Source: a virus. From it: DNA of 64,000 nt. The stretch is from positions 62,001 through 126,000 of the IMG/VR virus record IMGVR_UViG_3300042520_001980; one strand, given 5' to 3'. Below are positions 21,291 through 27,070 of the stretch, one piece after another (position 1 is the stretch's first letter; each line of letters starts with the position of its first letter). The notes under the pieces are model-generated. The model was not told the origin of the DNA and did not search any database. It saw only the letters and a list, made by a program, of their open reading frames with translations. Made by a program: the position numbers and the translations under genes.

Positions 21291-24179
21291 TCACTTCTTG
21301 TACTTGCCTAGAACAGGATAGGTAGCGACGTCCTCGTCTGTCAAGGGTTCGCTCCAACGAATGCAGACCTCCGGATCAATGCCAAGTACCAAGTCATTGT
21401 TCGGAATCCTGCATCTTTCGCACATTGCCATTCTCATGACCTCCATGGTCTCCTCAATCTGCTCTACGGGGCAGCTGACGATAACCTGATCGTGCACGCT
21501 CATGAGAACCCTGTACTGAAGGTGAGGACGCTCGGCCTCACGGATCATGTATAGGTTTACCAGGGCCAACGACATTAAGTCGCCTACCGTGCCCTGAATC
21601 GGTGCATTCATCGCCTGACGCTTCTGATGAGCCAGCAGCTCGTTGTCCTCGGTATGCTCGAACCGACGACGTCGGCCGAATCCGTTTTCGACATATCCCT
21701 GGCTGCCGACCTTTTCCTGCTGCGAAATCAGCCAATGTGCAAGCTGAGGAAAAGTCGCTTTAAACTTGTCCACAGCCTCTTGAGCTTCTTCCAGCGTAAT
21801 GTTGACTCCTTCCATATATACCGCTTCTTTGATGGCCGCTCCGCCACGACCGTACGCAATTCCGAAGGTGATAGTTTTCGCAATGGTTCTGTACTTTGTG
21901 TTTCCGGTTTCCTTCAGCCAATCTTTCTTGCCTTTGGCATAGTCCGCCGGTGGCTTATCCAGGCGGAACATTTCTATGGCGACCTCGGAGTGGAAGTCCG
22001 ATCCGGGATCGCTAAGCTTCTGCTGCATGTTGGTGTCTCCGGAGAGCCACGCCATGACGAAAAGCTCGGCCTGCACCCAGTCGCAATCCAGCAAGGCCCA
22101 ACCAGGATCCGCTCTGAAGCAGGAACGGATTGAAGGTATCTGCTGCTGCTTGTCCTTGAAGGCCTTGCTAACAAGGTCCTCCGCGGTCTTTGGCAGCTGA
22201 GCCATGTTGGGATCCGAGTGTCCGTAACGCCCAGTCTCGACGGTCTGCCTAATGCGAGTATGGACTCGGCCATCACACCACAGCTTAGGCAGAATACCGC
22301 CATCCACCGAGTGACCGCCATCGGGCAGCTCCACGAACTCTCCCGTGAATGTCTTCACGGTCTGAGCTACCGCAGTGTACAGCAGCATGGTGTTAACCAG
22401 CTCGTTATCTTTATGAATTAGCAGCAAGCTGGTAAGAACAGAACGATCTGTAGACGGAGTATACGACGCCAGTTTTTCCGGCTTTTCCAGAAGCTTGGAC
22501 CACTTTGCGTCATTTGTAGCCTTGATGGGCTCAAACCTACATAGAGTGGCAGTTGGTGGAAAGCTGGGCTTGCTGCCTTGCTTTACCCAGCCGAACAAAG
22601 CCGCTGCCTTCTGCACCGGAGAATCGGGATTGAAATCCGGCCAGTTGAGCAGACCTCGGAGCTTTTCCGTAAGTTCAGTGCGCTTAGCAGTGTACTTGTG
22701 AGAAAGCAGCTCCAACCGGTCTCTGTCAACGTTCATGCCAGTAGTCTCGATCTCAAGAATCGGCAGAGTGGCAGGCATGACCACGGTCTCGAACAGCGTC
22801 CGCACTCTCTCGTTCTCATGGCGCATCATTTCTGCATATTGAATCAGGAATATGCGGAAAGTGGCATCTGCGTCCTGAGCAGCATACGGAAACAGCACGT
22901 CGTCCGGAATTCCTCCGTAGCCGTGCTCGTCGACGTCGTACTTGCTTTCCTTGATCCAGGCATTCAAGGCAAGTTCATACCTGCCCATCTGAGTGTGCCT
23001 GGCTGTGTATACCTCCAGACCCTGTGCCCAGTTCTCGTCCAGCAAGTGCCCAGCCAAGGCAGTATCCCAGCCTGTGAGTGCAGGTAGGGTGACGTTTACT
23101 CCGTTGTGCTGAAGCCACGGCAAGTCGGCTCGTATGAAGTGGCCTATTAGCTTTGTCTTGCCGTTTTCCACAAATTGCTTTATCAGACTCCAGGCCTGCT
23201 GCTTGTTCTGGCCAAGAGGACTGGGCTGCATGTTGGCGTGATTGAATACCGCTACCAGCGCCTTGCCTGGAGCCCAGCTGAACTGAATGCACCGCAGTTC
23301 GCCGCTGAGGTGGTTTCCGCCGCCCCATTCGCAGTCCACGGAAACCCAGCCTGAGTACTCCTGCTCAATTGTCTGCAGGTGTTGCTGCAACTGGTCCAGC
23401 GAGTACACGCAGGTGTAGGAGATATGAGTGTCGTCCTTTACGGTTACCTGTCCGCTAGCCAGTTCGTTGGCTATCCGAGTCATGTCCAGGGCTATTGCTG
23501 CACGTACTTCAGGCATGTGGATAATGGCGGAGAAGTCAGTCATGATGGCCGTCTTTATGCCCAACGGACTTTCCTCTGCCGACATCGTACGGTTCTTGTA
23601 CTTCTCAACCGTAGCTCTAGCGCCCAGGACGGCCTTCAGCACTTTTGCACCCAGCAGGATTACAAGTTCTGGCTTGGCCAGCTCAAGCTCCTTCTTGAAC
23701 GCAGCGGAGTAGTCCTCGACCAGATCTTTTGGGATCGCCGTCTTTTTGCCGTCCACATAGTGTTTGACGTAAGTGGTGTAGTAGCAAGCAGATACTGGAA
23801 ATCCTGTCTTAGCGACCAGATCCTCGAATTCGGAAACCCACTCTCCGCAGTACAGCCGAGAGTTGTCGTTCTCACGAGAGTTTGGCCAGCAACCTACCAG
23901 CATTATTCTGCAAGGAGCAGGACCCAGCTCAGGAGTTGGCAGCAAATGCGCATTTGTCTTGCCCTGAGGAGCAGTAGTATTGAACACAGACTTGAGGTGA
24001 ATGCCAGGCAGCAGCTGAATAGGAGAGCTGATTCCATTTACGTTCAGGCAGATCCTGCTTCTACTCATGAGCATCTCTTGAAAGGAGTGCTCGATTGTCT
24101 GACTGTATTGCAAGGCTCTGGCCACGGCCATAGAGCCGTACTTCTGTACGTTCTCTTCCACAGTTGTTTGTATTGTCAT
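21291..24179 (-). CDS. UDG-like domain + 3'-5' exonuclease + family A DNA polymerase
   Basis: The replicative polymerase, 962 aa from the ATG of MTIQTTVEEN, 2 bases after the ClpS stop. Residues 85-235 look like a uracil-DNA-glycosylase fold (VGCWPNSREN, LLGAKVLKAVLG). The exonuclease has D282/E284 in VDCEW, D352 and Y432/D436. Polymerase motif A is DWVQAE (D700), motif B KTITFGIAYG (K768, F772, Y776) and motif C VHDQ (H896-Q898), where most relatives have HDE. I believe UDG-PolA fusions occur in some other large phages. Whether the UDG domain is catalytic is unclear. Confidence 0.92.
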   Translation of the reverse strand: MTIQTTVEENVQKYGSMAVARALQYSQTIEHSFQEMLMSRSRICLNVNGISSPIQLLPGIHLKSVFNTTAPQGKTNAHLLPTPELGPAPCRIMLVGCWPNSRENDNSRLYCGEWVSEFEDLVAKTGFPVSACYYTTYVKHYVDGKKTAIPKDLVEDYSAAFKKELELAKPELVILLGAKVLKAVLGARATVEKYKNRTMSAEESPLGIKTAIMTDFSAIIHMPEVRAAIALDMTRIANELASGQVTVKDDTHISYTCVYSLDQLQQHLQTIEQEYSGWVSVDCEWGGGNHLSGELRCIQFSWAPGKALVAVFNHANMQPSPLGQNKQQAWSLIKQFVENGKTKLIGHFIRADLPWLQHNGVNVTLPALTGWDTALAGHLLDENWAQGLEVYTARHTQMGRYELALNAWIKESKYDVDEHGYGGIPDDVLFPYAAQDADATFRIFLIQYAEMMRHENERVRTLFETVVMPATLPILEIETTGMNVDRDRLELLSHKYTAKRTELTEKLRGLLNWPDFNPDSPVQKAAALFGWVKQGSKPSFPPTATLCRFEPIKATNDAKWSKLLEKPEKLASYTPSTDRSVLTSLLLIHKDNELVNTMLLYTAVAQTVKTFTGEFVELPDGGHSVDGGILPKLWCDGRVHTRIRQTVETGRYGHSDPNMAQLPKTAEDLVSKAFKDKQQQIPSIRSCFRADPGWALLDCDWVQAELFVMAWLSGDTNMQQKLSDPGSDFHSEVAIEMFRLDKPPADYAKGKKDWLKETGNTKYRTIAKTITFGIAYGRGGAAIKEAVYMEGVNITLEEAQEAVDKFKATFPQLAHWLISQQEKVGSQGYVENGFGRRRRFEHTEDNELLAHQKRQAMNAPIQGTVGDLMSLALVNLYMIREAERPHLQYRVLMSVHDQVIVSCPVEQIEETMEVMRMAMCERCRIPNNDLVLGIDPEVCIRWSEPLTDEDVATYPVLGKYKK

Positions 24180-24181
24180 TT

Positions 24182-24469
24182 TTAGTCCGGCTCGATGGTG
24201 CAGGTGAGGCTTAAGGACACTAGCTGATCTTTTAGCAGTTCCGCCCGTTCTTTGTGCGTTACTTCGACGATAGAAAAACCATTTTTGTCTACCTCTGTGG
24301 TCTTTACTAGAGCCATGTGAGGGTCCATTCTGAGAATCTGCATTAGACATTTGATTACGTGTATGTACGTGTTTACGTCATCGTTGTGGACCAACACCTT
24401 CCACATCTTCAACGGCTTGGTTTCGGGAGGAGTGTTGACAGTCGTAGTATTTGAATTTGATTGTTCCAT
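24182..24469 (-). CDS. clpS: ClpS-like N-degron adaptor
   Basis: A 95-aa protein matching ClpS across its length: a flexible polar N-terminus, then MWKVLVHNDDVNTYIHVI (substrate-pocket NDD at residues 29-31), a helical core and the terminal SLTCTIEPD (CTMEPE in bacterial ClpS). ClpS hands proteins with destabilising N-terminal residues to ClpAP. At the column of the pocket His that contacts the substrate amino group (H66 in E. coli) this protein has Asp61, so specificity may differ. It sits between the primase and polymerase genes, 4 bases from one and 2 from the other. Confidence 0.88.
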   Translation of the reverse strand: MEQSNSNTTTVNTPPETKPLKMWKVLVHNDDVNTYIHVIKCLMQILRMDPHMALVKTTEVDKNGFSIVEVTHKERAELLKDQLVSLSLTCTIEPD

Positions 24470-24473
24470 TGCC

Positions 24474-25604
24474 TTACCTTGAGTTTTCTCTTTGCTTGTT
24501 AAGCACAGCTTCCATGAGTTCCGAAGTCGTCATGTTGGCTGGATCCTGGCCCTTCGGCAGTTCTATTGCAAGACATCCTTTTGCAATCTTTTGATTCAAA
24601 GACGCAATTATGTCAAAAATCTTGCCATTAACTGCTGCTTCGTGCTCGACCATGAAGACTATTTGTCCATCCTTGAACGATTCTGCCAGCATCTCCTGCT
24701 GCATTGGCCTTGGATACATGCCAAAGGTGCAGACTCCTGCAAATCCACAGGCAATGGCAGATAGGGCCCCTTCACAAACAATGCAAAACTTTCCGTCTGT
24801 GAATTTTTGCGCAGCCTCCAGCCTGTACAGCGTGGAGCCAAACGAGTAGCCGGGAGCATTCAAATACTTTTGAATGACTGCCTTGCCGGTATTGGGATCC
24901 TTGGGAATGTCTCCTATATATCTGGCAAGCCAGCCATTCCATACGCCTTGCTGTACGTTTGGAATTATCAATCTGTGCTCAGGAGTCACCGTGTGCCAAT
25001 TGCCTGCAGAGTCCGTGAATCTTTTATGCCATGGGCTCTTGCTGCAATAGCAGAACTGATATTCATTGGCCAACATGTCTATGTCGGCAAAGTTACGAGA
25101 CACCAGATACTGTATGACCGGATGGTCATCGCTAAGCTGGTTTATCGGAATTAGATCTTCTACTGCCCCAGGCAACTCCATTCTTCGGACCTCGGCATCC
25201 ATGCCCGTCTTTAGGTCCTCTGACTTTTGCGTCGTTGTCGGATCGTAGTCAGCGCCGTAAAGCACGTTCCACAGATCTCCCCAGTAGCAGCTTTCGTTAT
25301 GGCACTTTACGCAAGAGAACAGCTTTCTACCCGCTTGCTCGCAATAGGTGCCCCATAGATGACTGATGTACAGCCGAGATCTCTTGTCGTTACAGCGAGG
25401 ACAATTTACCGAATAGGTTTCGCCCCAGTTTATGAGATTGATTCTCTTGGAGCTTGCTTCCGGATTGCCGCTTCTTGCAGAAGCCCATGCCGCAATCTTG
25501 TCCTCTACGACATGGTATTTGGCTTCGACTCCCGCGTTGGTGACCTGCACTTTTCCAAACTTTTTCTTCAGAGCCTTTACAAGGATATCGTTTATGTACT
25601 TCAT
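24474..25604 (-). CDS. DnaG-type DNA primase
   Basis: Makes RNA primers for replication. The N-terminal zinc-binding region holds CPRC (about residue 68) and CVKC plus C further on. The TOPRIM core starts at CIVCEGALSAIA, carrying the conserved Glu, and continues to IVFMVEHEAAVNG, where the usual DxD is replaced by EHE. At 376 aa it is shorter than bacterial DnaG and lacks a clear helicase-binding domain. Its start overlaps the end of the DnaB-like gene (ATGA), fitting a primase-helicase pair. Confidence 0.87.
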   Translation of the reverse strand: MKYINDILVKALKKKFGKVQVTNAGVEAKYHVVEDKIAAWASARSGNPEASSKRINLINWGETYSVNCPRCNDKRSRLYISHLWGTYCEQAGRKLFSCVKCHNESCYWGDLWNVLYGADYDPTTTQKSEDLKTGMDAEVRRMELPGAVEDLIPINQLSDDHPVIQYLVSRNFADIDMLANEYQFCYCSKSPWHKRFTDSAGNWHTVTPEHRLIIPNVQQGVWNGWLARYIGDIPKDPNTGKAVIQKYLNAPGYSFGSTLYRLEAAQKFTDGKFCIVCEGALSAIACGFAGVCTFGMYPRPMQQEMLAESFKDGQIVFMVEHEAAVNGKIFDIIASLNQKIAKGCLAIELPKGQDPANMTTSELMEAVLNKQRENSR

Positions 25605-27070
25605 CCCAGATGAGACCTCACGGTTTCGTTGAAGGCCAGCGGATCACGACGACGCTTCCCGGTGGAGGGTGCGTCCTCTTCTTCCGACTGAGCTCCAGAC
25701 TTCTGGTTGTACAGCTTCATGGTCTCGGTGTTCACTTCCGACTTGTCCACCAGCTTCCAACGGGACAAAGCGCCGTCCATCTGGATTAGAGAATCCATGA
25801 AGGGGGCACCATTGCGAACCTTTGGAGCATTGACCCAGGCCATGTTGCTTTCCTTGTCGCGATTGCCTACGCAGATCACCGTATCCATGTAGTGGTGCAG
25901 AGTGCGGCACATGTAGGCATCGGTGGCTTCGGGCTTTCGCTGGGGGCCACTGGCCGAAGCCGTGGTGCCCAGCTGATGGTACACAAATATGTTCACTTTC
26001 AGATTGCTGCCGACCTTGCGCAAGTCGTCGGCCATCTGATTCATGATCTTGGTCTGCTCTGAGGTGTTTATTCCCCGTACAGCCATATAGTTGTTTGCCA
26101 TCGGCCCGAGCCAGTCGATGCCTACATACCGTGGTTCCTTTCCGGAATCTCGTGCCTGCTTGACGATCAGCTCGACCTCGTTAGCGCCACCGCCGCCGCC
26201 ACCGTTGTTCTGTGCGGCTTCGAGCATGTCAACGATCATCAGCCTTCCAGCAAGCCTCTCCCGCACCTTGTCATACTTGGCCTTCAGTCCTTTGTTGGCC
26301 TCGAATCCCTCTTTGCTAAGTCCCACAAATGAGGAGATCGGTATTCCCATGGCAAATGCGTAGATACGGTTGGTGATGCCTTCCGCATTTTGCTCGTAGG
26401 TGAGGATCAATGAGTCCTCTCCGTTCAAGGCCGCAGTCGTGGCCAGCTGAATGTTGGTCAGGGTCTTGCCGCCACCGGATGGAGCCAGGAACAAAGTCGT
26501 CTCTCCGGTGGTTGCACCTCCGCTAGTCACAATATCGACCCAGTCTACACCCCAAGGTCTCCGTACTGCATTGGAGAGCATGGGAGTTGCGCTCATGAAT
26601 GGATCTATGAACTTGGCCCGGCTGATGGAAGTGCTGGCAATAGTCCTGGTCAGTTCCTGCACCTTGTCCACGATGTCCTCGGCACGATCAATGCCAAAAG
26701 CAGCGGGACGGACCTTGCGGTCAATCAGAAACTTATGCAGGAATTCCAGCACATAGGCTTTGTGCTCGTCGAATTCCGCCACTGAGTTGTAGGCCCAGTG
26801 CAGGATATCTCCAAAATGCAATGCCTCGGCATCGTTCAGCACCCTGTTCGGAACCAGCTCGTCCATGAACGCGCTGACTGCGACTTCGTAAGGAACGGGG
26901 GTCTTGCTGGTGGCGTGCCATCTGCTGCCAATGATGAAGGCTACGCGCAACGGAGTCTCGTTGTCGCGAAAGTCCTCCAACTTCAGGCGCTGGACGATCA
27001 TTCCCATTACTTCGCTTGACCTGAGCATGCCCAGGACAAGCCACTTGTTGTTAGCGTGACTCAGGTCCAT
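25601..27070 (-). CDS. DnaB-type replicative helicase
   Basis: A hexameric 5'-3' helicase of the DnaB/RecA-like family, 489 aa. Walker A is APSGGGKT (residues 196-203), followed by the DnaB-type SLILTYEQNAEGI segment and Walker B VGIDWLGP. A conserved Arg/Gln-containing YHQLG segment follows. The N-terminal 150 residues are helical. It precedes the primase gene with a 4-base overlap and overlaps the upstream gene by 10 bases. Confidence 0.9.
   Translation of the reverse strand: MDLSHANNKWLVLGMLRSSEVMGMIVQRLKLEDFRDNETPLRVAFIIGSRWHATSKTPVPYEVAVSAFMDELVPNRVLNDAEALHFGDILHWAYNSVAEFDEHKAYVLEFLHKFLIDRKVRPAAFGIDRAEDIVDKVQELTRTIASTSISRAKFIDPFMSATPMLSNAVRRPWGVDWVDIVTSGGATTGETTLFLAPSGGGKTLTNIQLATTAALNGEDSLILTYEQNAEGITNRIYAFAMGIPISSFVGLSKEGFEANKGLKAKYDKVRERLAGRLMIVDMLEAAQNNGGGGGGANEVELIVKQARDSGKEPRYVGIDWLGPMANNYMAVRGINTSEQTKIMNQMADDLRKVGSNLKVNIFVYHQLGTTASASGPQRKPEATDAYMCRTLHHYMDTVICVGNRDKESNMAWVNAPKVRNGAPFMDSLIQMDGALSRWKLVDKSEVNTETMKLYNQKSGAQSEEEDAPSTGKRRRDPLAFNETVRSHLG

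Follow-up and report, generated by a model that had tools for sequence, protein, structure and literature searches.

The window analysed here, a whole stretch of 64,000 nucleotides, comes from a viral record of 174,569 bases that is possibly a fragment. It encodes a small protein resembling the bacterial protease adaptor ClpS, with an aspartate in place of the histidine of the N-degron site. This raises the question of whether the phage has altered the pocket, either to hijack host ClpAP towards new substrates or to block the host N-degron pathway as a decoy, as the original prediction supposed, or whether it carries a pocket that bacteria already possess. We favour the latter. With a probability of roughly 0.6, the protein is a ClpS that Planctomycetota-like bacteria also possess and most likely donated, and that docks on host ClpA or ClpC and delivers N-degron substrates; judged from sequence comparisons, the phage appears to have borrowed a functional adaptor instead of inventing a decoy.

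A ClpS gene within a viral replication operon

The gene and its surroundings comprise the following features.

24182..24469, minus strand: clpS gene, ClpS adaptor of the Asp type, 95 aa (Pfam ClpS, AlphaFold2 model, PDB matches)
24407..24469, minus strand: N-terminal extension, residues 1-21, preceding the first strand of the fold (pLDDT; role from PMC9663308)
24474..25604, minus strand: primase, directly upstream of clpS with a 4-base gap (PHROG 47 DNA primase, E 6.4e-20)
21291..24179, minus strand: DNA polymerase A with N-terminal UDG-superfamily domain and 3'-5' exonuclease, following directly on clpS after a 2-base gap (Pfam and PHROG)
25601..27070, minus strand: DnaB-like replicative helicase, lying upstream of the primase (PHROG 19, E 2.2e-28)

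The clpS frame opens with ATG and encodes 95 residues. These match Pfam PF02617 (ClpS) with an E-value of 4.3e-16 and a score of 58.9 bits (cut-off, 23), which is their sole Pfam match at E 0.001, and a profile search across the whole phage record returned this gene as the one ClpS match (E 7.4e-17). NCBIfam ClpS models match the protein below their equivalog cut-offs (best 56 bits versus 117; 0/10 listed models pass), and in PHROGs it matches an 'ATP-dependent protease' family (E 1.2e-5) and, weakly, two unknowns. The AlphaFold2 model, built from 50 sequences, shows a ClpS fold with a mean pLDDT of 89.5, and all 38 PDB chains that match it at E <= 0.001 are ClpS, 7d34 and 3o2h being among the best; 4o2x, another matching chain, is also named ClpS. 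Family assignment and predicted fold thus bear out the proposed identity and place the protein inside ClpS (PF02617) and not outside it.

Since ClpS and L7/L12 have a fold in common, and L7/L12 reaches a Z score of up to 10.8 against the model, we also considered a relative of the L7/L12 C-terminal domain. We rejected this candidate because of the Pfam match, the PDB matches to ClpS throughout and the higher scores of ClpS structures (Z 14-17 versus about 8-11). This reading, together with that of a neutral hitchhiker, is highly improbable; against the latter stand the dN/dS values of clpS pairs from the Asp-type clade, which are about 0.06 (L028 versus L108) and 0.02 (L034 versus L035). The core of the phage gene is under purifying selection. 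An identical protein is encoded in three IMG/VR contigs, which, together with the low dN/dS and the presence of the aspartate in all six distinct sequences found in the close phage clade, rules out a sequencing error or a chance reading frame.

The N-terminal extension is predicted with less confidence (mean pLDDT 51 over residues 1-10, 78 over residues 11-20) and leads into the first strand at residue 22. It thus spans 21 residues, compared with about 25 in E. coli ClpS as given in passages of PMC12493166; in E. coli, this extension is described in part of PMC9663308 as the segment that the pore loops of ClpA pull.

With gaps of 4 bases to the primase stop and 2 bases to the polymerase start, clpS is closely packed into the replication operon; its place inside the polymerase-primase operon had been correctly noted in the original prediction. 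The polymerase start was taken at the ATG at 24179, and its Pfam and PHROG matches were made on the longer frame 21291-24350. This polymerase begins with a domain of the uracil-DNA-glycosylase superfamily (PF03167, E 1e-7), followed by the exonuclease and polymerase domains. The order primase-clpS-polymerase recurs in L030-L033 and in L034-L035, two further lineages with polymerases that are 68% and 82% identical to that of the window. Neither a ClpP nor a Clp_N gene was detected in the phage record, and the adaptor would therefore use host machinery, provided that the record is complete enough. Scans of the operon gave 4 promoter sites and 10 terminator sites, both below the shuffle means of 7.6 and 12.5, respectively. 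The polymerase revealed no close named phage: 3449 phage records match it, and the 15 matches listed are only 23-26% identical.

Pocket residues compared with E. coli ClpS

The sequence of PDB 1mbu, identical to E. coli ClpS, served as reference. Residues 22-85 of the phage protein align to it without gaps at a constant offset of 5, which defines the following features.

24377..24385, minus strand: Asn29-Asp30-Asp31 loop, E. coli Asn34-Asp35-Asp36 (alignments)
24365..24367, minus strand: Tyr35, replacing the gatekeeper Met40 (alignment; codon tac at 24367-24365)
24299..24301, minus strand: Thr57, replacing Met62 (alignments; codon acc at 24301-24299)
24287..24289, minus strand: Asp61, replacing His66 (alignments; codon gac at 24289-24287)
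24239..24250, minus strand: Glu74 to Glu77, with the ClpA contacts Glu79 and Glu82 of E. coli both kept (alignment; contacts from PMC12493166)

The phage protein is 27% identical to E. coli ClpS and resembles it in fold (TM 0.79 with 3o2h), in the NDD loop for the alpha-amino group (phage residues 29-31, E. coli 34-36) and in Glu79 and Glu82, but differs at Met40, Met62, His66 and Lys84, which are Tyr, Thr, Asp and Leu in the phage. The retained NDD loop, the Thr at the usual Met, the Asp at the His position and a C terminus reading CTIEPD had all been noted in the original prediction and are confirmed by the alignment; Tyr35 at the gatekeeper place had gone unlisted. His66 is usual, though not universal, in ClpS, and its Caulobacter counterpart contacts the alpha-amino group of the substrate according to passages of PMC12493166. 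An alignment shift that masks a displaced histidine was considered and rejected, since the alignment is ungapped there and has no His within three residues of Asp61. The same passages name Glu79, Glu82 and Lys84 of E. coli ClpS as ClpA contacts; Lys84 is a salt-bridge partner of ClpA. Two of these three contacts are kept, Lys84 being Leu79 in the phage protein, and both glutamates are present in all six distinct phage sequences of the Asp clade.

For comparisons of the whole pocket we used 12 positions, namely those listed for Caulobacter in PMC12493166, which we converted to E. coli numbering ourselves with an offset of 13.

The same pocket in planctomycete ClpS

In a scan of species genomes, the best 80 of 177 relatives were kept, and 76 of these 80 loci carry titles of planctomycete taxa. 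They yielded 79 distinct ClpS sequences, with Asp at the His66 place in 15 and His in 64, shares that do not represent population rates because of this selection. Thr is the commonest residue at the Met62 place (49/79). The nearest bacterial relatives are the eight loci L117-L123 and L134, of which six are planctomycete-titled, while L122 is an 'uncultured bacterium' and L123 a 'Bacteroidia bacterium'; as the ClpS of L123 equals that of L120, they represent seven distinct sequences. The phage protein is 62-66% identical to these seven over 79 columns and agrees with every one of them at all 12 pocket positions. We conclude that the phage pocket is the pocket of a bacterial lineage.

The eight nearest loci, from Phycisphaerae and freshwater Planctomycetota MAGs, also share Glu79 and Glu82 with the phage protein but differ from the phage gene in their neighbours and in the sequence of the N-terminal extension. 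None of their neighbours matched the phage record. Read from the sequences without a profile search, the flanking genes are DUF1501-like in five of the loci and MenD/MenF-like in three, L119 has an efflux-like gene, and nothing nameable flanks L123 and L134. By these flanks, the eight loci look chromosomal, and one ClpS was found in each of the eight genomes.

The aspartate as an invention of the phage is thereby rejected, and the proposal that the phage had altered its pocket to hijack or to block the host pathway was not borne out. The shared pocket also bears on a decoy or brake, in which phage ClpS would fill the N-domain and pore of ClpA or ClpC without delivering substrates, and would thereby spare ssrA-tagged, self or phage proteins or block host ClpS. 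In favour of such a role, passages of PMC12493166 report that ssrA degradation is inhibited by E. coli ClpS and by both Leptospira ClpS proteins, and that LinClpS1, the Asp-type ClpS1 of Leptospira interrogans, lowers the ATPase of ClpA by 57% at 10 uM; a high level of phage ClpS in infection would favour it as well. However, a pure decoy needs no pocket, and the phage pocket matches its nearest chromosomal counterparts residue for residue in a core under purifying selection. We therefore consider a decoy unlikely.

Viral relatives

Viral contigs were scanned with four phage sequences and the best 80 of 244 relatives kept, so that the Asp shares do not represent population rates. After removal of L026 and L027, which encode the same protein as L025, and addition of L108-L110, 57 distinct viral ClpS sequences were compared. 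The His66 position is His in 51 of them and Asp in six, and these six all belong to the same clade as the window gene. All 69 relatives outside the Asp clade among the best 80 of 244 have His. In the search of other phages for the same Asp, which the original prediction had suggested, it was present in all six of the close clade and in Vibrio phage 2.275.O, but not in 51 of the 57 distinct sequences.

The same kind of ClpS occurs in a second set of viral contigs (L028, L029, L108 and L110 examined), directly behind a DnaB-like ATPase gene; at least two dissimilar groups of viral contigs would thus have retained clpS. In L028 (5000-8756) and L108, the Asp-type clpS is followed by genes for an AAA_5 (MoxR-like) ATPase and a DUF2201/VWA-like protein, families that were searched for L028. 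His-type ClpS is common in uncultivated viral contigs (L036-L104), some of which exceed 200 kb (L072: 507,910 bases), and the three huge-phage records L005-L007 all have His at this place.

ClpS is also encoded by the isolated jumbo phages PA5oct, Atu_ph07, Phosso, GAP32, Kaldavass and Vibrio phage 2.275.O. It is listed for Atu_ph07 in part of PMC6102473, and passages of PMC7824862 describe jumbo phage ClpS as an adaptor likely to bring targets to host ClpAP. These six proteins are only 13-27% identical to that of the window, and their genes lie near small heat-shock, thymidine kinase or IF-3 genes and not in a polymerase-primase operon. PA5oct, Phosso and Kaldavass have His at the His66 place; Atu_ph07 (L011) has Glu, GAP32 (L015) Lys and Vibrio phage 2.275.O (L012:2992-3348) Asp. 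The histidine has thus been lost in other phages too.

Several candidate comparators were left out. The record of Acinetobacter phage MD-2021a (H8, H9; L017), in which argC, clpS and clpA are close neighbours, probably represents bacterial chromosome, MT838771 and MT835505 are likely bacterial, and the weak matches H4-H7 (34 query residues, E 0.7-1), of which H4 alone was inspected, look like chance.

Asp-type ClpS as the only kind found in a genome

We searched 20 bacterial genomes for ClpS, 15 picked for Asp and five as His controls, and read 27 matches. Thirteen of the 15 Asp genomes are planctomycete-titled (all except L122 and L123). By title the 20 genomes are mostly MAGs, in which a missing ClpS, Aat or Clp_N is no proof of absence. 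Every ClpS found in the 15 Asp-picked genomes was of the Asp type, ten genomes having one ClpS and five having two. Aat, the enzyme that makes Leu/Phe N-degrons, was found in 14 of the 15 (all except G007), and a Clp_N domain likewise in 14 (all except G012). Among the His controls, two have a His gene together with an Asp paralog and three a His gene only. Since these 15 genomes yielded no other kind of ClpS and 14 of them have Aat, the Asp pocket is probably a functional one.

The second ClpS paralog present in 7 of the 20 genomes has Asp at the His66 place in all seven and Asp for Asn34 in six. This Planctomycetota paralog (L197, L198, L200, L201, L202, L209, L212) carries DDDHTYEYV-like and EVDxxGR-like motifs, and its pocket resembles that of Leptospira ClpS1; 19 rows among L286-L313 have the same look. 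ClpS was found in 158 of 294 genomes of the planctomycete phylum. From the matches listed, we took a wider sample of 90 rows, consisting of the 30 best loci and every second row thereafter (60). It contained Asp in none of the 30 best rows and in 19 of the 60 further ones (19/90), and all 19 look like the second paralog.

The best trees imply eight changes between His and Asp, of which well-supported branches alone force one or two; one such switch separates L143 (Asp) from its well-supported sister L153 (His). From these trees, Asp looks like a tolerated state that has arisen more than once. The phage Asp sequences form one group with a support of only 49 in trees of few columns, a value too low to fix the order of transfer.

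There are published parallels to an Asp-type adaptor. As described in passages of PMC12493166, Leptospira interrogans ClpS1 has Asp62 for the His, Tyr36 for Met40 and has lost Lys84, all as in the phage protein, and still binds ClpA with a Kd of 0.44 uM despite the loss of Lys84. It slows ssrA degradation, and its effects on ClpA vanish when the N-domain of ClpA is absent. It differs from phage ClpS in other pocket residues (Trp29, Ala58, Met100 and more), is chromosomal and resembles the second planctomycete paralog. Moreover, both the UBR box and the ZZ domain of p62 bind the alpha-amino group through Asp carboxylates (PMC6098011), so that an Asp at the His66 place is chemically reasonable.

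Co-occurrence of Tyr40 and Asp66

The altered residues may alternatively give the Tyr-Thr-Asp pocket another specificity. In a retargeted adaptor, this pocket would read an N-terminal signal other than Leu, Phe, Tyr or Trp, in phages and Asp-type bacteria alike. Among 229 non-redundant sequences, Tyr40 occurred 37 times with Asp66 and never with His66, and Asp66 occurred nine times without Tyr40. This exclusive pairing fits retargeting, but the tree contains only two to four independent changes to Tyr40, the independent-pairs test lacked significance (p 1, too few pairs), and the Fisher value ignores descent and is no proof. Furthermore, the presence of Aat in 14 of the 15 genomes in which every ClpS found is of the Asp type argues for recognition of Leu and Phe. 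We regard retargeting as doubtful. The pattern fits a Tyr-Asp contact formed after loss of the His, but may reflect descent alone.

More speculatively, and in our estimate improbably, ClpS proteins with Tyr40 and Asp66 could form a distinct class of N-recognin in Planctomycetota (with Leptospira) and their phages, in which Asp would hold the alpha-amino group, Tyr would shape a pocket with its own N-terminal code, and phages would steer the host Clp protease in replication.

A model for phage ClpS and the question of its host

A borrowed, working adaptor is the reading that we prefer, and action on host ClpA or ClpC, as proposed for jumbo phage ClpS, is the likeliest function. The gene would have been acquired from Planctomycetota-like bacteria. 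The core of the protein would dock on the N-domain of the ClpA or ClpC unfoldase and its N-terminal extension would enter the pore. The adaptor would pass on proteins with an N-terminal residue that suits the pocket, and Asp61 most likely stands in for His66 as partner of the substrate alpha-amino group, a role that Asp also has in the UBR box and in p62 ZZ. N-degron proteolysis would thus be raised or redirected during phage replication. Counterpoints to this explanation are the Leu at the Lys84 place, the genome without Aat (G007) and the genome without Clp_N (G012).

From the clpS gene alone we infer a planctomycete host, which is supported neither by base composition (GC 49.6% in the window versus 67-70% in the stretches L117-L122) nor by a CRISPR search, in which a 20-kb piece of the window revealed no link among 298 genomes of the class. 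The same 20-kb query matched the clpS of G005 at the DNA level (120 bases, 75%); its other matches in the 298 genomes were four and weak (E 6.9e-5 to 6.1e-4), and the two shortest of the weak ones (28 bases in G527, 33 bases in G356) fall in loci whose direct repeats form no array. Relatives of the primase were represented by two weak matches among 294 genomes of the planctomycete phylum.

Jumbo phages had already provided examples of phage ClpS, and one Leptospira protein an example of the His-to-Asp change; beyond the reports cited we found no earlier literature on an Asp-type ClpS of phages or planctomycetes. The present analysis adds a phage ClpS whose entire pocket points back to a bacterial lineage; there Asp is the native residue, and the sole ClpS detected in a genome with Aat is often of the Asp type. 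This raises the question of whether a ClpS without His66 can still read Leu and Phe N-degrons, and the answer would show how much change the N-degron pocket tolerates and what benefit ClpS brings to the phages that carry it.
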